Assembly (NCBI GenBank): GCA_016192075.1
Contig: JACPUU010000022.1
Coordinates: 62,001 to 126,000, forward strand
Reading direction: 5' to 3'
Length of the DNA: 64,000 nt
Source of the DNA: Bacteroidota bacterium
Lineage (GTDB): Bacteria > Bacteroidota > Bacteroidia > Flavobacteriales_D > Crocinitomicaceae
Shown here: piece after piece, positions 5,570 through 63,630 of the stretch
Position numbering within the stretch: the stretch's first letter is position 1
Layout of the letters: each line of letters begins with the position of its first letter
Notes under the pieces: generated by a model
Databases searched by the model: none
Seen by the model: only the letters and a program-made list of their open reading frames with translations
What the model was told of the DNA's origin: nothing
Translations under genes and position numbers: made by a program

Positions 5570-6154
5570 TTAGTGTCCTGCTGCAAATGCAGGCAGAAAA
5601 ATAGCGTTGACTGAATCTTTAAATTCAGGCAAAACCAGGTGTCCGTCAATATCTTCTACATCCACCACATCGTATTTTTTACCTTGCCATTCATGACGGA
5701 TAGCCACCACACCAATATCCGGATCATCATACCCGATCAGCAGGTTGTTGTAACCTGAATGCGTGGTGCGCATCTCCAACAAATGGCCGAAATACTGGTT
5801 AATGATTTTATATTTTCCAAAATATCCTTCTACAACAACCACCTGGTGAACCGGCGAATTAAATAAACCCGGTATCATTTCTACAATAAAACCATCACTC
5901 CAGGGGCGGTCAGGCCGGTATTTAAAAACCTGGAAAAATTCATTGCTGCATGGCGGCAAATGAGTTATGGTATCAACTGTGGTACACATTTGAAGCTGCT
6001 CCATAATTGGAATCACTTCCTCTTCCAGTTTCGGGTATCCATCAAAGATGATCATCGTATCTGATTGAAACTTTGTTTCACCTGATCCGGAATTTCCTCC
6101 GCATGAAAAAAGGAAAAATGAACCTAGAAAAAGACTGGTAGCAAAAAAACGCAT
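5570..6154 (-). CDS. Lipoprotein of unknown function
   Basis: A 194-residue protein with a lipoprotein signal MRFFATSLFLGSFFLFSCGG; the lipidated residue would be Cys18. The mature part has no repeat or membrane segment and no domain I can name. It sits 10 bases from the DUF2807 gene upstream and from ruvX downstream, so it lies inside a run of closely spaced minus-strand genes. Confidence 0.7.
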   Translation of the reverse strand: MRFFATSLFLGSFFLFSCGGNSGSGETKFQSDTMIIFDGYPKLEEEVIPIMEQLQMCTTVDTITHLPPCSNEFFQVFKYRPDRPWSDGFIVEMIPGLFNSPVHQVVVVEGYFGKYKIINQYFGHLLEMRTTHSGYNNLLIGYDDPDIGVVAIRHEWQGKKYDVVDVEDIDGHLVLPEFKDSVNAIFLPAFAAGH

Positions 6155-9044: not shown

Positions 9045-10013
9045 CTAATAACGTGCGCGATACTGGAATTTCATTTTTTTAGACCGTTGATAGGTAACGT
9101 TGCGGATCAGGGACACATTAAAGAAGAAATAGGCATCTTTCTGTTTTGAGTCTCCCCGCATCTGGCCGGGAGCGGTCCATGTTTCAAATTCACCCGAAGA
9201 CGGATCAGCAAAATACGCTGCCGTAGACCCGTATGCGTTATTAATAGCCGCATTGTCATAATAAACAGAACTCACATCATCCAGGTAATCGGTAAATGTT
9301 TTGGTGTAGGTTAGTTCAAACGATAAACGCCAGAGCGCATCCAAACCTATTTTGCAGCCTGCGCCAAACGGAATACCGAAGTTGACAAATTTATAGGGTT
9401 TCGGGCCACCGGGCAGGCCCTGTCCCTCAGTGTGCAATGGTCTGAGGTTTGTCCAGCCGCCGTCACCGGCCCCTTGCGGAATGTATCCAAAAACGGTAAA
9501 ACCGCTTAACAGGTATACCAGCGTATTTTTATTACGCATCCCTTTTAACCCGTAAATTTTATAGCGTTTACCAAAATGCTCGTTGTTAAAAATGATAAAC
9601 TCAAGTTGCTGTGAAAATTCAAAAATGTGCGTTCGCACAGTCAGATTGCGGTAATGCCGAGAAGGTTCATTGGTCAATGCATCATCGCCTTTCATGATTC
9701 CATACTCCAGTAGTGATTTGGTACAGATCCAGGGCCTGAGACGGTACCGGTAACCAATATGGCCTGATGGCCGTGTCACAACCCATTCAAGATCCATGGG
9801 GGAATAATCTGTTCCAATACGGTTAAGTCCGCCGAGGTCTCCCAGAAAGTTGGTGGCTCCAACGCCAAACAGAATTTCTTTGCGCTGATGTTTCCAGTAA
9901 TCAGAAGTTGTAAAATGGGTAGGCTGTCCGATGGAAAACTTTCCCAACGCAACCAATCCAACAACCAACGTTCCAATTTTCCGGATTAAGTTCACAACAA
10001 GTAAATAGCGCAC
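9045..10013 (-). CDS. DUF6089 / PorG-like outer-membrane beta-barrel protein
   Basis: About 322 residues, with a signal peptide ending near SIGQP and a beta-barrel pattern: E-I-L-F-G-V-G-A-T-N-F-L-G-D-L-G-G near the N-terminus, alternating aromatic strands, and SKQKDAYFFFNVSLIRN near the end. These are features of the DUF6089 family, which includes the T9SS outer-membrane component PorG. The first codon is GTG at 10013, but a GTG at 9995 (MNLIRKIGTLVVGL) would give a more typical signal peptide, so the start is uncertain. It lies downstream of, and on the same strand as, the ECF sigma/GldM-tailed gene pair. Confidence 0.7.
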   Translation of the reverse strand: MRYLLVVNLIRKIGTLVVGLVALGKFSIGQPTHFTTSDYWKHQRKEILFGVGATNFLGDLGGLNRIGTDYSPMDLEWVVTRPSGHIGYRYRLRPWICTKSLLEYGIMKGDDALTNEPSRHYRNLTVRTHIFEFSQQLEFIIFNNEHFGKRYKIYGLKGMRNKNTLVYLLSGFTVFGYIPQGAGDGGWTNLRPLHTEGQGLPGGPKPYKFVNFGIPFGAGCKIGLDALWRLSFELTYTKTFTDYLDDVSSVYYDNAAINNAYGSTAAYFADPSSGEFETWTAPGQMRGDSKQKDAYFFFNVSLIRNVTYQRSKKMKFQYRARY

Positions 10014-10117
10014 TAAGTTAAGGCAAATAATACCTGTTCTGCAAATTTTCAGGAAAAATTAACCCCTAGTTGTTAGTAAATTAACAGGTTGTCTGTGAAA
10101 GAATCAAGCTAAACCTT

Positions 10118-10909
10118 TTAGTTCAACAAAACATAACGGAGTGGATTCAGGCGGACAATAAAACCGTCCGACGTTTTACCCCGGATATTTTCAAAGTAGA
10201 TGGTCTCCCCTCTCTCTACCCCGTCAAGCGCCGTTTTCATTTGTTGATTCAGCTGATTGCTTTCTTCTTCAAACACTTTACCTCCCAAACCATCAATCAG
10301 ATGCAGTTCAAAATGAATAATACTTACATCTGAATTTGTAGTCAGTCCTTTATTATCCATCAGGTCTTCACGTGTTATATCGCCATTCATTTTTCCGTTG
10401 ATACGGGGAGTCAGATCCATTGGGTCAAAACCTGATTTCTGATTCTGATTTTCATCCGATTGATTAATGACAACCTGTTGCGGAACAGTTGTTTCAACGA
10501 TTTGTTCACTTTGATCTGAATTAATTATAGGTGTAATGTTTTTATCATTGACTTTGTGTTTTGTTTGAACCTGGTAAATTTCTGTCGTCTCTTCCTGCGT
10601 ACCCGTGGTTAAATTAACTGCCAGCAATTCGTGCGGCTTGTCTTTTTCGACAAGGCTGAGTGGCGGAGTGTCTGTTATTTCAGGCATGACAGACTCAACG
10701 GATGTGTCATCGGACCCCTGAAAAGCAATGGTTCCACCGACTATTAAGCCGATGGAAGCCATTCCTGCTGTTCCGAAAAACCATTTCGTTTTATAAAAAG
10801 GTTTTGACATGGTCTGATAGGTGACCATCAATTGACCAAAATTCATCCCGGCCTGAATTTCTTTAGACTCGAGTGGTGGTCTGTCAAGATTCATTTTTCT
10901 ATTTTTCAT
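10118..10909 (-). CDS. Single-pass membrane protein with GldM-like C-terminal domain, encoded with an ECF sigma factor
   Basis: A 263-residue protein. Residues 1-40 are polar and would be cytoplasmic, 42-63 (KWFFGTAGMASIGLIVGGTI) form one membrane segment, 70-190 are low-complexity and Gln/Thr-rich, and the last 60 residues form a compact domain. That domain reads F-E-L-H-L-I-D-G-x-G-G-K..., then LNQQMKTALDGVERGETIYFENIRG and DGFIVRLNPL. It resembles the C-terminal domain of GldM/PorM from the gliding and type IX secretion machine. Its start overlaps the sigma gene by 11 bases, the arrangement of a membrane anti-sigma or sensor partner. That role is inferred; no anti-sigma zinc motif is present. 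Confidence 0.6.
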   Translation of the reverse strand: MKNRKMNLDRPPLESKEIQAGMNFGQLMVTYQTMSKPFYKTKWFFGTAGMASIGLIVGGTIAFQGSDDTSVESVMPEITDTPPLSLVEKDKPHELLAVNLTTGTQEETTEIYQVQTKHKVNDKNITPIINSDQSEQIVETTVPQQVVINQSDENQNQKSGFDPMDLTPRINGKMNGDITREDLMDNKGLTTNSDVSIIHFELHLIDGLGGKVFEEESNQLNQQMKTALDGVERGETIYFENIRGKTSDGFIVRLNPLRYVLLN

Positions 10910-11480
10910 AACCTATTTCATTAAATAGTTTTTTCATTTTCTGGATTATCCGGTGTGCCTTTACTTTAGCATTGTTTTCAGTAATTTCAAGTATGTCACC
11001 GATTTCTTTAAACGATCGTTTTTCAAAAAAGCGCATTTCAATCATCTGAACTTCATCTTCACTCAATTCAGCAATTGCCTTAAGCAGGACCGTTCTGCTT
11101 TCTTCAGAGATGTCCTCTTCTATTTCTTCAATCATGTCAGACAAACTCACTGTTTCCACGTTAACAGTGCGTGTTGCCTTTTCATCACGGAATGATTGAT
11201 AGAGTTCACTTTTGGCAATGCGGTAGAGCCAGCTCGCAAATGGTACGCCGCGATACTCGTATTTCTGAATGTTATTCATTGCTTTCAGAAAAACCTGGCT
11301 GGTAATGTCGTGAGCCATATCTTTGTCATCCATCCGCTGATAGATGTACCGGAATATCTGCTCATAGTATTTATTGTAAAGCGGCTCGAAACTCCTCGGG
11401 TCCTCCTTGGCGCGCTTTATCCACTCAAGCTCCTGCAAAAGCCGGTCTTCAGTGTGATGATAAATAGGGTTAACTGGCAT
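10899..11480 (-). CDS. ECF-type RNA polymerase sigma factor
   Basis: A 193-residue sigma-70 family protein of group 4. Region 2 runs from FEPLYNKYYEQIFRYIYQRM through AHDITSQVFLKAM and FASWLYRIAKSELYQSFR; region 4 is LSEDEVQMIEMRFFEKRSFKEIGDILEITENNAKVKAHRI. The ATG at 11480 (MPVNPIYHH) is preferred to a TTG at 11525. It is encoded with a membrane protein carrying a GldM-like domain, so it may respond to envelope or secretion status. Target genes cannot be seen. Confidence 0.9.
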   Translation of the reverse strand: MPVNPIYHHTEDRLLQELEWIKRAKEDPRSFEPLYNKYYEQIFRYIYQRMDDKDMAHDITSQVFLKAMNNIQKYEYRGVPFASWLYRIAKSELYQSFRDEKATRTVNVETVSLSDMIEEIEEDISEESRTVLLKAIAELSEDEVQMIEMRFFEKRSFKEIGDILEITENNAKVKAHRIIQKMKKLFNEIGYEK

Positions 11481-18423: not shown

Positions 18424-18522
18424 TCGGATTTGTTTTTGTTGCTGATGCGGCGGGCGTAAAACCTTTCACTGACTGATTACGCAATCTCCTGACAGGGATA
18501 ATTCCTTAATTACCAACCATGG

Positions 18523-18539
18523 TGACGGATAATCCGTCA
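18523..18539 (+). promoter_or_regulatory. Perfect palindrome upstream of the T9SS protein/peroxidase pair
   Basis: TGACGGAT and ATCCGTCA are exact inverted repeats separated by a single A, starting 100 bases past the lon stop and 31 bases before the next start. It has no T-run, so it looks like a possible operator for a dimeric regulator rather than a terminator. No regulator can be named. Confidence 0.35.
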
Positions 18540-18569
18540 GGTAAGAATATATCCTTTATCCCAAAACTT

Positions 18570-19478
18570 ATGAAAAAACAATTACTTGTATTTCTCTTTC
18601 TGCTCTTTTTGTATAGCGGTGCGCGTGCGCAATACCACACCCAGTATTTTGACGGTGCTGATACCAGTGCCTGGAGTGCCATCTTTGTAAACCTGGATAC
18701 AACCGGAATCTGGCAGGTTGGTCCGCCGCAGAAAATCATTTTTGAAAGTGCATCAACCATACCCAATGTATTGATCACCGATACCGTGAATACCTACCCT
18801 GATTCCGTCTCTGCATCTGCCTGGTTTACCATTCCTCCGGATTTACTTTCTGCAGGTGGTTTAGCCATTCAGTGGAATCAGAAACTGGATCTTGACACCA
18901 ACAAAGACGGAGCATTGGTTGAATTCTCTACTGATTCAGGTGCCACCTGGGAAAATGCATTTGGCAACCCGAGTGTCTATAATTTTTATGGCTGGTCGCC
19001 GGCCAATGAAGGATCCATTCCATCCGGTGAACTCTGTTTTACCGGCACTGATTCAACCTGGAAAAATGTCTGGCTTTGTTTTCTGTATGACTTTTTGTGG
19101 AACGTTGACAACCTGAGTGTCCGTTTCAGAATGGTGTCTGATTCGATAGAAACAAACCAGGAGGGCTGGATGATTGACAACCTGATGGTTGCTGAAACCT
19201 GGTTTCACCCGGTAATGGAGCAATCCAAACCTGATAATTTTAAATTGTATCCAACCATTACGGACAGAACCATCACACTTGAACAAATCAACCTATCACC
19301 CGATTTTATCCTTAACCAGGTTGCACTGCTGAGTATGAATGGCCAATTCATCCGGTCAATCCCTGTTTCATCCACATTAGAGGTAATTGACCTGGCTGAC
19401 ATTGCTCCCGGACGATACCTGCTGCTGATTGAAGCAAACGGTAAAAAAGAACTTCATGAAATTGTGATTGCGCGCTAA
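18570..19478 (+). CDS. Secreted protein with T9SS type A sorting domain
   Basis: A 302-residue protein. The ATG at 18570 gives a signal peptide MKKQLLVFLFLLFLYSGARAQ. The mature N-terminal 200 residues form a jelly-roll-like segment (FDGADTSAWSAIF, LEFSTDSGATWENAFG-type strands, W-M-I-D-N-L) similar to MAM/choice-of-anchor domains. The last 75 residues are a type IX secretion sorting domain: FKLYPTITDRTITL, VALLSMNGQFIRSI, IDLADIAPGRYLLLI and a basic end. The protein should be exported and surface-anchored or released by the T9SS. The peroxidase gene starts three bases after its stop. Confidence 0.85.
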   Translation: MKKQLLVFLFLLFLYSGARAQYHTQYFDGADTSAWSAIFVNLDTTGIWQVGPPQKIIFESASTIPNVLITDTVNTYPDSVSASAWFTIPPDLLSAGGLAIQWNQKLDLDTNKDGALVEFSTDSGATWENAFGNPSVYNFYGWSPANEGSIPSGELCFTGTDSTWKNVWLCFLYDFLWNVDNLSVRFRMVSDSIETNQEGWMIDNLMVAETWFHPVMEQSKPDNFKLYPTITDRTITLEQINLSPDFILNQVALLSMNGQFIRSIPVSSTLEVIDLADIAPGRYLLLIEANGKKELHEIVIAR

Positions 19479-20685: not shown

Positions 20686-22497
20686 ATGAAATTTTCAGTT
20701 AACCCGGCATTCATTTTTGTACTGTGCTTTCTGCCGCTTACCACATCTGCTCAATGGCAGAATACCGGAACGCCTGCATTTTCTGCCGGACAGGCACAGT
20801 ATACGAGCCTGGCAACCTATGCCGGAACACCCTATGTTGCTTACCGTGATTTAGCCAACGCTAACCGGTGCACCGTTATGAAACACGATGGTGCCAATTG
20901 GGTGAACGTTGGTTCGCCTGCGTTCTCAGGCGGCGGCGCACTCTATACCAGCCTTGCCATTGACAACGGCTTTCCGTTTGTGGCGTATGTAGACGGTTCC
21001 AGCGTCAACCGGGTAACTGTAAAGGCGTTCAACGGCAGCAGCTGGATCACCGTTGGTACCGTTGGTTTTTCAGGCGACAATACCAGTTTTGTAAATCTGA
21101 AGTTTGACGGTTCAACACCGTATGTTGCTTACCAGGACGGATCAAACGGCAATAAAGTTTCGGTTATGAAATTTGACGGCGTTAATTGGATACAGGTTGG
21201 CACTGCCGGTTTTTCAGCCGATGTTGCATCTGAAATTTCATTGACCATGCTGGGCACAACACCTTATGTTTCATTCAAAGATGCAGCTGCTTCCAACGAA
21301 CTTTCAGTCATGTATTTTGACGGGACAGCGTGGCAATACCTGGGCACACAGGGAATCACTTCGGGTGGTGTGGGTAGAACATCTGTTGCCAATAACGGCA
21401 CTGAAATCTTTGTGGCTTTTGAAGATGTTGCCAACGCAGACAAACTGACGGTTATGAAATACGCCGGCACCTGGCAATTAGTTGGCACAGCTGGCTTTTC
21501 AGCCGGTGCAGCAGATTATATTGACCTCGAATTTCTGGGCACTGATCCCTACGTTGCTTACCAGGACCAGTCGTATGGATTCAGAGCAAATGTGATGTGG
21601 TTTGATGGTACCAGTTGGTTAGAAATTGGCGTGCCGGGTTTTACACCTTCACAGGCTTTGTATACATCGCTTGCGTTTGACGGGGGTTATCCGCTCGTTG
21701 CTTTTCAGGATTATGATGGCGGAACGTACAAAGCATCTGTGATGAAATACGAGCCGTGTTTTGATGCCGATATGCCGTCTTTATCACTGAGCCAAACCAC
21801 CATTTGTAAAAACATGCCACTCACACTGTCCATCACTTCAGGTAATCTCAACAGCGCTGATTACTGGAGTGTTTATACCGGCAGCTGTGGCGGAACATTT
21901 GTTGGAAGTTTTGCTGGAAGTTCAGCCGTACTTTTACCACAAGGCAATGTCACTTATTATGTAAGGGGTGAGCCGGCCTGCGTAACCCCGGTTTCCTGCG
22001 CAAGTATTGGTGTTACTGTTATTCCTATAGATTCTTCGGTCACTGTATCAGGCGGAACAATGACCGCTGTATCAACCGGCGGAACCTATGAATGGCTGAA
22101 CTGCTCAACCGGTTACAGTGTTATTCCCGGACAAACCGGACAAAGTTTTACAGTACCTGCAAACGGATCATACGCGTTAAAAATTTCTGAAAACGGCTGC
22201 GTGGATACAAGTGCCTGCTACACGTTTACAGGTACCGGATTTATGCCTGAAGAAATACCTGATTTTGCAATTTATCCAAATCCGGCTACGAATGTCATTA
22301 CTATAACCGGTTCTGATTTTTCAGAAATTACCATTATTCGCATTCTGGATCTGAAAGGACAGGAATGTTTGCAGGAAATAATTAATTCAGCCACTGCAAT
22401 TACGCTGGATGTGTCCGGCTTATCGGCCGGAATTTACCAGGTTCAGCTATTGACTGAAACACAAATTCAGTCAACACAACTTGTTATTCAAAATTAA
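20686..22497 (+). CDS. Secreted repeat protein (probable seven-bladed propeller) with T9SS sorting domain
   Basis: A 603-residue protein with signal peptide (cleavage near SAQW). Residues 23-360 contain seven repeats of about 48 residues, each with W-x-x-(V/L)-G-(T/S)-x-(G/A)-F-(S/T), then Y-T/S-L, then P-(Y/F)-V-(A/S)-(Y/F)-x-D and V-M-K/Y-F-D-G. Seven such units suggest a beta-propeller. Residues 365-500 are a cysteine-containing Ig-like or SprB-like region, and the end (FAIYPNPATNVITI ... LSAGIYQVQLL) is a type A T9SS sorting domain. The ligand and role are unknown; a surface adhesin or sugar binder is possible. Confidence 0.85.
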   Translation: MKFSVNPAFIFVLCFLPLTTSAQWQNTGTPAFSAGQAQYTSLATYAGTPYVAYRDLANANRCTVMKHDGANWVNVGSPAFSGGGALYTSLAIDNGFPFVAYVDGSSVNRVTVKAFNGSSWITVGTVGFSGDNTSFVNLKFDGSTPYVAYQDGSNGNKVSVMKFDGVNWIQVGTAGFSADVASEISLTMLGTTPYVSFKDAAASNELSVMYFDGTAWQYLGTQGITSGGVGRTSVANNGTEIFVAFEDVANADKLTVMKYAGTWQLVGTAGFSAGAADYIDLEFLGTDPYVAYQDQSYGFRANVMWFDGTSWLEIGVPGFTPSQALYTSLAFDGGYPLVAFQDYDGGTYKASVMKYEPCFDADMPSLSLSQTTICKNMPLTLSITSGNLNSADYWSVYTGSCGGTFVGSFAGSSAVLLPQGNVTYYVRGEPACVTPVSCASIGVTVIPIDSSVTVSGGTMTAVSTGGTYEWLNCSTGYSVIPGQTGQSFTVPANGSYALKISENGCVDTSACYTFTGTGFMPEEIPDFAIYPNPATNVITITGSDFSEITIIRILDLKGQECLQEIINSATAITLDVSGLSAGIYQVQLLTETQIQSTQLVIQN

Positions 22498-61227: not shown

Positions 61228-63630
61228 TTAATTTCTCAATATTTTACCTTTTGTTACAATAGACTGAATGCGCTCCAGTGTTTTCTTTTTTGTACACAAA
61301 TCCAAAAATGCTTTTCGTTCCAGATCAAGCAGGTATTGTTCATCTACTTCGGATACTTCAGACAAGTCTCCGCCGGACAATACAAACCCTAATTTTTCAG
61401 AGATGTATGCATCGTGTTCAGAAATGTAATGCCCTTCTTTCATTGTACCGGCACCAACATATACGATACCTAACCCCTCCTGCCCCAGAACTGTAATGTT
61501 TTTAGGTTTGGCAGGCTGGGTATAGCCGGCATTATAAAGCGCCAGACACGCTTCTTTGGCACGCGTCAGCTGATAATCACGGTCAACTACAATTTCATCA
61601 ATTCCTTTTCTCAGATATCCAAGTTCAAATGCTTCTTCAGCCGAGGTAGAAACTTTTGCCTGTCCAATGGTAAGAAAGCTGTCGCGGAAACGGTTAATGC
61701 GCACATCTCCCGGTTTCATAGAATCAGAAAGCCGTTTCGCAAATTCTTTGGTTCCGCCACCACCCGGTATTAAGCCCACACCAAATTCAACAAGTCCCAT
61801 ATACAACTCAGCGTGTGCAATTACTTTATCAGCGTGCATAGACATTTCACAGCCGCCGCCCAATGCCATGTTATGCGGTGCTACAATTACCGGGCACGAT
61901 GAATAACGTACACGCATCATGGTATCCTGGAATTGTTTAATGGCAAAATTTAACTCGTCATACTCCTGGTCGGCCGCCATCATGAAAATCAAACCAACGT
62001 TTGCGCCCGCAGAAAAATTCTGACCGGTGTTGGAAATAACAACGCCTTTGTATTCTGTTTCAGCCAGGTCAATGGCTTTATTGATACCTTGTAATACGCC
62101 GCCGCCAATGGTATTCATTTTGGTATGAAATTCCACATTCAGAATTCCGTCTCCCAAATGCACAATATGACAATCTGCATTTTTCCAAACCGTGTTGGTG
62201 TCTCTCAAATTATCCAGGAACAGTAAGTTTTCAGTTCCAGGAATTGATTTATAGGTTTCGCTGGTAATGTCATAAAATTTGCGCACACCATTTTCTATTC
62301 TGAAGAATGATTTATTACCCGCAGCAATCATTTTTGTGACCCAGGCAGCCGGTGTTTTGCCATGTTCTTTCATCATGGCTATGCCTTTTTCAACACCCAG
62401 AATATCCCAGGTTTCAAAAGGGCCTAACTCCCAGCCAAAGCCGGCCTTGAGCGCATCGTCAATTTTATAAATATCATCGGTAATTTCAGGTATGCGGTAG
62501 GATACATACGAGAATAAACCTGAAAATAATTTTCTGAAAAACTGTCCAGCTTTGTCCTGTGCACCTAACAACATTTTGGTACGTGTTGCCAGATCATCTA
62601 CCGTTTTGGTTTGCGACAGAATTGGAAAATCAGATTTTTTCTTTGGTTCGTACTCCAGTGTTTTCAAATTCAGGGAGAGAATTTCGCTGTCAGCTCCTTT
62701 TGAAACTTTTTTGTAAAATCCTTGTTTTGTTTTTGAACCCAGCCATTTATTATCTATCATTTTTTTGATGTACGAAGGCAGTTTAAACTGGTCTTTTTCT
62801 TCGTCATTCGGTAAGTTGGCTGCCAGACCATTGGCCACGTGAACAAGCGTATCAAGCCCTACCACATCACAGGTTCTGAAGGTTGCTGATTTGGGTCTTC
62901 CTAAAACAGGTCCGGTTAATTTATCCACCTCATCAATGGTTAAGTCCATTTCTTCAACGGTGTGGAACAAAGACATAATAGCGTAAACACCTACCCGGTT
63001 GGCAATAAACGCCGGCGTATCTTTACACAATACGGTTTTCTTACCCAGGAAACGGGCGCCGTAATGCATCAGAAAATCGACAATTGCAGGATCTGTTTTT
63101 GGTGTTGGAATAATTTCAAGCAAACGCAGATAGCGTGGTGGATTAAAGAAATGCGTTCCGCAGAAATTTTTCTGAAAATCATCACTTCGTCCTTCTAACA
63201 TCAGGTGAATTGGAATACCGGATGTATTGGACGATATCAGCGTGCCTGGTTTTCTGAACCTGTCTGCTTTTTCAAGAATGAGCTGCTTAATATCCAGGCG
63301 TTCAACAACCACTTCAATAACCCAATCGTATGCATTTATTTTTGCAAAATCATCGTCAAAATTTCCGGTGGTGATTCTTTTTGCAAATACCGCATGATAA
63401 AGCGGGGCCGGTTTTGATTTAATGCAGTTGGTTAATGAATCATTGACAATGCGGTTTCTGACATTTTTATGCTCCAGGGATAGTCCTGACGCTTTTTCTT
63501 TATCATTCAGTTCACGCGGAACCATATCGAGCAATAACACTTCACAACCAATATTTGCAAAGTGGCAGGCAATGGCAGATCCCATAACACCTGAACCAAG
63601 AACCGCTACTTTTTTAATTTTTCTATTCAT
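61228..63630 (-). CDS. Fused 3-hydroxyacyl-CoA dehydrogenase / enoyl-CoA hydratase
   Basis: An 800-residue multifunctional enzyme. The N-terminal half is the dehydrogenase: VAVLGSGVMGSAIACHFANIGCEVLLLD (NAD fold) and FCGTHFFNPPRYLRLLEIIPTPKT. The C-terminal part is the hydratase/isomerase, with FSAGANVGLIFMM and PHNMALGGGCEMSMHADKVIAHAELYMGLVEFGVGLIPGGGGTKE containing the catalytic acidic residues. The domain order is reversed relative to E. coli FadB. It performs the second and third steps of beta-oxidation. It overlaps the marR gene by four bases. Confidence 0.92.
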   Translation of the reverse strand: MNRKIKKVAVLGSGVMGSAIACHFANIGCEVLLLDMVPRELNDKEKASGLSLEHKNVRNRIVNDSLTNCIKSKPAPLYHAVFAKRITTGNFDDDFAKINAYDWVIEVVVERLDIKQLILEKADRFRKPGTLISSNTSGIPIHLMLEGRSDDFQKNFCGTHFFNPPRYLRLLEIIPTPKTDPAIVDFLMHYGARFLGKKTVLCKDTPAFIANRVGVYAIMSLFHTVEEMDLTIDEVDKLTGPVLGRPKSATFRTCDVVGLDTLVHVANGLAANLPNDEEKDQFKLPSYIKKMIDNKWLGSKTKQGFYKKVSKGADSEILSLNLKTLEYEPKKKSDFPILSQTKTVDDLATRTKMLLGAQDKAGQFFRKLFSGLFSYVSYRIPEITDDIYKIDDALKAGFGWELGPFETWDILGVEKGIAMMKEHGKTPAAWVTKMIAAGNKSFFRIENGVRKFYDITSETYKSIPGTENLLFLDNLRDTNTVWKNADCHIVHLGDGILNVEFHTKMNTIGGGVLQGINKAIDLAETEYKGVVISNTGQNFSAGANVGLIFMMAADQEYDELNFAIKQFQDTMMRVRYSSCPVIVAPHNMALGGGCEMSMHADKVIAHAELYMGLVEFGVGLIPGGGGTKEFAKRLSDSMKPGDVRINRFRDSFLTIGQAKVSTSAEEAFELGYLRKGIDEIVVDRDYQLTRAKEACLALYNAGYTQPAKPKNITVLGQEGLGIVYVGAGTMKEGHYISEHDAYISEKLGFVLSGGDLSEVSEVDEQYLLDLERKAFLDLCTKKKTLERIQSIVTKGKILRN

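Follow-up and report, generated by a model that had tools for sequence, protein, structure and literature searches.

Here, we describe a three-gene cluster on the minus strand of a 64,000-nucleotide stretch of DNA (the window; positions 62,001 to 126,000 of contig JACPUU010000022.1, assembly GCA_016192075.1) from the 4.65-Mb genome of a member of the Crocinitomicaceae, Bacteroidota. The cluster encodes an extracytoplasmic function (ECF) sigma factor, a membrane protein (MP) that is a putative anti-sigma factor tipped with domain 4 (D4) of PorM/GldM from the motor of the type IX secretion system (T9SS), and an outer-membrane barrel. The sigma gene (11480-10899; 193 aa, starting with the ATG at 11480) matches Sigma70_r2 (8.3e-14) and Sigma70_r4 (5e-10) of Pfam as well as TIGR02937 (1.1e-25), and its product contains regions 2 and 4 only, i.e., the build of an ECF sigma factor. 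The MP gene (10909-10118; 263 aa) shares 11 bp with the sigma gene, in agreement with the overlap pointed out in the initial annotation of this DNA. The third and conserved member of the cluster, a DUF6089/PorG-like outer-membrane barrel gene (10013-9045; 322 aa), begins about 100 bp past the MP gene on the same strand. The genes beyond the barrel we take, by our own labels, to be pyrD-like and HMG-CoA-lyase-like.

MP can be divided into four parts, all of them encoded on the minus strand, and its membrane topology was judged from the sequence and the structural model. Residues 1-45 (10775-10909) are a conserved cytoplasmic segment, in which R10 and F24 are invariant among 43 sequences, and which would be the sigma-binding part. 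Residues 47-62 (10724-10771) form a single hydrophobic helix in the model, taken as the membrane helix, and residues 63-161 (10427-10723) form a tether that is probably disordered, with pLDDT mostly around 50. Residues 162-263 (10121-10426) are assigned to D4 by profile, model, and structure comparison. MP has in this way the layout of a transmembrane anti-sigma factor, i.e., a coupled gene 3' of the sigma gene, an N-terminal cytoplasmic part, and one helix. Because the N-terminal segment is the constant partner of the sigma factor across loci, it is likely the anti-sigma part. The tether is 69-123 residues long in the fused proteins of this family, with a median of 96 (50 rows, duplicates counted). 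If 0.34 nm per residue is assumed, the 99-residue tether in the window could span about 33 nm when fully extended, which is further than the ~18-nm arm of PorM/GldM (PMC5790014).

A likeness of the MP C terminus to GldM/PorM had been noted in the initial annotation, where it was placed at residues 200-263; the likeness stands, while the domain is larger and covers residues 162-263. The Pfam family GldM_4th matches MP with an E-value of 0.048 (14.7 bits), under its curated cut-off of 24.6, and four of the six D4-like relatives scanned are matched with E-values of 0.00025-0.058, again all sub-cut-off (best 22.1 bits, L040; genomes, contigs, and loci are numbered here with G, C, and L). Please note that a search of the source genome with GldM_4th gave nothing at E 0.001 and also missed both gldM genes there, so that this negative carries no information. 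MP has no match to the equivalog TIGR03517, which describes the whole GldM, at E-values up to 1. We then used a profile (A4) made from 22 regulator D4 sequences and free of GldM. Against 177,635 distinct Protein Data Bank (PDB) sequences, its top five matches are all PorM/GldM, with the C-terminal parts aligned (E 0.04-0.52 each), and hhalign pairs it with the GldM C terminus at a probability of 94.9 (E 4.5e-8). The AlphaFold2 model of MP has a pLDDT of about 95 over residues 162-263, and Foldseek with this model returned seven matches under E 0.001, all of them PorM/GldM (E 1.6e-5). In a second aligner, four PorM/GldM entries matched over 97-102 residues with Z-scores of 14.7, 14.4, 14.3, and 13.0, whereas the next unrelated chain reached only 5.9; this comparison with GldM domain 4, which had been proposed as a check on the initial annotation, thus came out GldM-like. 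The sequence identity between MP D4 and PorM/GldM is 13-18%. In the predicted structure, the C-terminal 102 residues of MP form the full PorM/GldM domain 4 fold.

The relatives of the cluster were collected by scanning contigs with a sigma alignment (A1) built from 21 relatives, from which the best 80 of 475 matches were kept; the same kind of scan with the single sigma sequence gave 60 pattern matches, none of them a relative. Judged by the sigma sequence, i.e., by a tree of 83 sigma factors and by the profile scan of contigs, the nearest named relatives belong to Crocinitomix. MP matches were found in 35 of 59 genomes, the source genome included. The locus counts below rest on 91 distinct sigma loci. 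MP directly follows sigma in 80 of the 83 loci with at least 1.5 kb available downstream, and the gap between the two genes is at most 10 nt in 83 of 101 rows. Where at least 4.5 kb downstream is available (68 loci), a D4 is encoded within four genes in 54 loci, 32 of these being fused, the barrel lies within six genes in 54, and pyrD lies within eight in 55.

Reading of these neighborhoods showed three forms behind the same sigma factor: the fused MP as in the window (form A), a split form (B), and a minimal form (C). In form B, a long MP precedes a D4 protein that is secreted and encoded by its own gene, frequently with one more small protein, and the barrel comes thereafter. The split is seen in several related genera; in seven relatives, the N-terminal part of MP (residues ~1-85) matches a frame of about 540-640 residues and the C-terminal part matches a separate nearby gene. 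Form C consists of the cytoplasmic segment, the helix, and a short tail in an MP of 59-110 residues (12 proteins). The cytoplasmic segment and the helix are retained in all three forms, and D4 is not. On the tree of 83 sigma factors, the fused state requires at least seven changes, while the well-supported branches force only two of them; a repeated and independent fusion of the anti-sigma factor with D4 is possible on this basis. The ectodomain of the long form (L034:5941-7632 and the other long MPs, alignment A3) contains a ZU5-like sandwich, with Z-scores of 9.5-10.4 to ankyrin ZU5 and 8.9 to a GAIN domain. No credible Pfam family was found in the two long MPs scanned, and the four matches of a PDB sequence search with the A3 profile (E 0.28-0.84) are taken as chance. 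In one locus (L040:7490-8347), a protein with the FGE-sulfatase fold, which is the fold of GldK/GldJ, is encoded between the long anti-sigma and D4 genes.

Upstream of the sigma gene lies a promoter-like site, CGTAACCAA-N12-CGTTAT(A) (11542-11515, minus strand), which is conserved family-wide. The strict two-part pattern is found in 45 of 94 distinct sigma upstreams as compared with a mean of 1.25 in shuffled sequences, and the matrix derived from these regions, to which 89 of 91 upstreams contributed, has the consensus TGTAACSAA-N12/13-CGTTAT and scores the site in the window at 20.1. ECF promoters are built as such two-part sites, and the conservation of this one before the sigma gene points to autoregulation, which we consider likely. 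The closest sigma paralog has a distinct upstream element of its own, TGTTACTTT, in 15 of 18 loci (L384-L400), and it is followed in 15 of 18 loci by a one-pass protein of 66-120 residues with a build similar to that of MP. A gene labeled PorP-like by eye is next in four of the 18 paralog loci. The copy of this paralog in the source genome (L097, G000:C2:124000-137000) may be decayed, as a start codon of a common type is lacking for its first ~50 residues and it is not followed by a small membrane partner.

The matrix, trained on sigma promoters alone, was then applied to the upstream regions of gldK. GldK was present in 42 of 44 genomes, and 39 were scored, with G007 (where the contig ends), G012, and G021 left out. 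All 22 scored genomes of the family, including that of the window (own site: TGTAACCAAATCATAAGATTCGCGTTAA), reach at least 14 before gldK, 20 of them at least 16 and 17 at least 18. For comparison, 836 other upstreams, from which sigma, MP, and GldK-like genes were omitted, reach 14 in 1.7% and 16 in 0.5% of cases. Among genomes of other families in the order, a score of at least 14 was found in two of the five that have the sigma factor (G051 with a sigma of only 45% identity) and in one of the 12 that lack it, the other 11 being under 14. Individual scores are, for example, 24.5 in G009, 17.1 in G022, 0.1 in G041, 5.7 in G042, 4.3 in G046, and 14.6 in G052. Since the upstream element of the paralogous sigma is different, the gldK site fits the sigma factor of the window and not the paralog. 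The promoter shared by gldK and sigma argues that gldK(LMN), the operon of the T9SS motor, is probably under the control of the sigma factor. In the gldKLMN cluster of the source genome (L093, G000:C16:79000-93000), a second gldM stands directly after gldN, and both gldM genes are over the GldM cut-off.

We propose that an autoregulated pair of ECF sigma factor and trans-envelope anti-sigma factor has the T9SS motor under its control and senses it by means of a copied motor tip, a reading to which we assign a probability of roughly 0.55. In this model, the sigma factor would transcribe its own operon, gldK(LMN), and a few further envelope genes, for which the sequence evidence is strong. MP would hold the sigma factor at the inner membrane through its first ~45 residues, as suggested by the gene position, the overlap, and the conservation of this segment. 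The disordered tether of ~100 residues would, by homology with PorM, let D4 reach the outer-membrane side; PorM-D4 by itself binds PorN in two-hybrid tests (PMC5790014), from which we infer that MP D4 may reach and read the ring. Docking of D4 on the GldN/GldK ring, or the loss of it, would alter the hold on the sigma factor and set the output of the motor genes, and the PorG-like barrel of the same operon possibly joins this docking. A more specific version, which we offer tentatively and with the odds against it, is that the tethered D4 competes with GldM D4 for the GldN/GldK ring or the barrel, i.e., the anti-sigma factor counts motorless rings. If true, the secretion machine would use a duplicate of its rotor tip to read free docks and thereby tune gldKLMN transcription.

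Several observations weigh against the proposed control of the motor by this pair. In 14 of the 68 loci no D4 is encoded within four genes, and in 14 of the 68 there is no barrel within six; therefore, neither is essential to the switch, and both are common and not universal partners of the sigma locus. A D4-like protein was also found apart from sigma (L054). When 22 sigma loci were scored, several of them unreliably placed owing to a weak or no tblastn match, the matrix gave 18.1 before another ECF gene of the source genome (L077). The gldK spacer is 13-14 nt, compared with 12-13 nt in the sigma promoters. Motif counts are no better: the strict pattern gave 16 matches in seven genomes against 16 with the reversed control, i.e., no excess, a looser pattern gave 21 against 40 in the source genome, and a second pattern gave 71 against 81 in 60 genomes of the family. 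A large regulon estimated from motif counts was dropped on these grounds, and the motif is informative only through its recurrence at orthologous genes. The 16 strict matches comprise four at sigma, three before gldJ-like genes behind a porP-like gene, four at P1150 (an exported protein of ~1150 residues; a smaller gene intervenes in one of the four), and five elsewhere. Of the 71 second-pattern places, 59 were read, some of them shared with the strict scan of seven genomes, and 20 of those read fall within a called gene; the largest downstream groups are GldJ/GldK-like (7), P1150 (5), and sigma (4 clear). The expectation attached to the initial annotation, that the targets of the sigma factor should include T9SS or envelope genes, agrees with the predicted set, in which gldK(LMN) is joined by gldJ-like genes and by genes for other exported products.

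The same data bear on other explanations. The locus might encode an ordinary envelope-stress ECF/anti-sigma pair, in which D4 is a generic beta-sandwich ligand binder and the T9SS genes are part of a wider regulon. The loci where D4 is absent fit with this, as do several motif sites that precede genes for products with signal-peptide-like starts (by eye) and the ectodomain itself, which is ZU5-like in the split form and nearly missing in the minimal form, so that the input would have changed in evolution. On the other hand, the domain recruited here is specifically D4, and the related domain of PorM is a binder of PorN; a PorG-like barrel is encoded next to it, and the sigma promoter is shared with gldK; we regard the envelope-stress explanation as somewhat doubtful. 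A different doubt concerns the sigma factor that reads gldK. The likeness of the promoters could reflect a common ECF consensus, with gldK(LMN) driven by a different ECF factor of similar -35/-10 preference. The gldK sites of G001 and G023, two genomes of the family, score 23.0 despite a sigma match of only 40-43%, so another sigma factor may read gldK there, and G052, which lacks this sigma factor, has its site at 14.6; the authors of the Flavobacterium psychrophilum study discussed below also allow several ECF factors to share one motif over T9SS genes (PMC9723704). Against it stand the 11 of 12 other-family genomes that lack the sigma and fall under 14 at gldK and the different element before the closest paralogous sigma in 15 of 18 loci, which make a different ECF factor unlikely.

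MP could also be a T9SS accessory, e.g., a decoy or adaptor of the ring, that does not bind the sigma factor and is merely co-transcribed with it. If D4 acts as PorM-D4 does, it would be enough on its own to bind the ring (PMC5790014); what is universally kept, though, is the cytoplasmic segment with the helix and not D4, and in 15 of 18 loci a short, similarly built protein is likewise encoded behind the paralogous sigma. We consider the accessory role very improbable.

How does the proposed motor-reading pair compare with known systems? The Dma proteins of Bacteroides are anti-sigma factors of the trans-envelope type, in which a tether leads to a barrel at the end of the chain (PMC13088901). 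Dma and MP are alike in the N-terminal anti-sigma part (putative in MP), one membrane helix, a long disordered tether (probable in MP), a C-terminal domain destined for the outer-membrane side, a cognate ECF sigma factor in the operon, and the restriction to Bacteroidota. They differ in that Dma ends in a beta-barrel of the same chain, whereas MP ends in the PorM/GldM D4 and the PorG-like barrel is a separate gene; and Dma2 controls vesicles and glycan loci, whereas the sigma factor of MP is predicted to target T9SS motor genes. PorM/GldM and MP share the full-length D4 fold, MP being devoid of domains 1-3 and having a tether in place of the rigid arm. In Porphyromonas gingivalis, SigP serves T9SS genes together with PorX/PorY (PMC4800418, PMC7712824), and the likeness to our locus is an ECF sigma factor over T9SS component genes (predicted here). 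The response regulator PorX binds SigP, which is absent when PorX is missing; the motif proposed for SigP differs from the promoter of the window sigma, and no anti-sigma factor is described for SigP in the sections of these papers cited here (PMC4800418, PMC7712824). The gene behind the window sigma, in contrast, encodes a membrane partner that bears a motor domain. Because the window sigma has a membrane partner of its own, a wiring unlike that of SigP/PorX is plausible. In F. psychrophilum, the ECF motif SM6 with a CGT box was reported before gldN, porU, a PorG homolog, and an ECF/anti-sigma pair, THC0290_1774/1773, which the authors suggested to regulate the SM6 set (PMC9723704). What this shares with our case is a CGT box in an ECF-type -10 at T9SS genes and an ECF/anti-sigma pair that is itself a target; unlike for MP, no D4 or tether is described for the THC0290_1774/1773 pair in the cited part of that study (PMC9723704).

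That T9SS genes stand under an ECF/anti-sigma pair has thus been suggested before. What seems to be new is the sensor made from a motor tip, with its fused and split versions, and the presence of the promoter before gldK throughout the family; the titles and abstract openings of the open-access literature matches listed name no anti-sigma factor with a GldM domain. MP would represent a second kind of trans-envelope anti-sigma factor beside Dma. How the expression of the T9SS or gliding motor is matched to the state of the machine is an open question beyond Porphyromonas, and even there the input is unsettled; the locus offers a specific sigma factor, a likely anti-sigma factor, a promoter sequence that precedes gldK in all scored genomes of one family, and a sensor domain related to one with a known partner, PorN. 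The steps are testable in cultured Crocinitomix catalasitica or Taishania pollutisoli.

The barrel and the surrounding genes deserve a few more remarks. That the next gene on the same strand is PorG/DUF6089-like had been suggested before, and this proved right: the barrel matches DUF6089 at 8.8e-6, over the cut-off, and the PorG-like model at 5.8e-20. The latter match has 72 bits under an equivalog cut-off of 130, and we dropped the assignment of the barrel as the PorG equivalog (NCBIfam T9SS_PorG), given that another gene of the source genome reaches 168.8 bits. There are four more full-length PorG-like genes in this genome, one of them over the cut-off, with weaker matches in two large frames. 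A PDB search with the barrel had a cytochrome at E 0.043 as its best match and nothing else. The closest paralog of the barrel in the source genome has 67% identity and is on contig C7 (L095, G000:C7:247500-258500); two genes in its vicinity resemble LytTR-type response regulators (by eye). The initial annotation had further counted two T9SS cargo proteins within 10 kb. One of them (20686-22497) carries a Por_Secre_tail over the cut-off and the other (18519-19478) falls short with 16.8 bits versus 27. Por_Secre_tail was found 150 times in the source genome (150 of 219 candidates scored), and the chance of at least two cargo tails in 20 kb is about 14%; cargo clustering as evidence for a T9SS link was dropped because the tails are too common genome-wide.

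P1150 is encoded in 42 of the 44 genomes searched (e.g., L216:944-4432; G000:C10:82785-86192 in the source genome), and the copies scanned have no Pfam or NCBIfam match and no PDB match. The sigma motif lies upstream of P1150 in some near relatives of the source genome. We rejected P1150 as a family-wide target, as the strict site is present in three of the 30 loci inspected (L280, L282, and L285); in L284, it lies further upstream with another gene between. A lipoprotein-like gene (~190-220 residues; 5570-6154 in the window) is located a few genes downstream of the barrel, and in several relatives (e.g., L121, L130, L138, and L140) the sigma motif precedes such a gene, which was equated with that of the window by eye; these sites head the list of background upstreams ranked with the matrix.

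A further observation concerns the sigma leaders. Of 90 distinct leaders, 43 contain a hairpin in front of the start codon whose octaloop is WCUGCAAG, as compared with 0.1 of 90 after shuffling, e.g., L117:6944-6975 and L034:5312-5343; it is missing from the clade of the window. Rfam gave no match in nine loci. The hairpin covaries: its first four pairs are formed in 43, 43, 42, and 42 of the 43 leaders with several two-sided changes, compared with 38, 36, 31, and 5 of 43 when the 3' arm is slid by one base.

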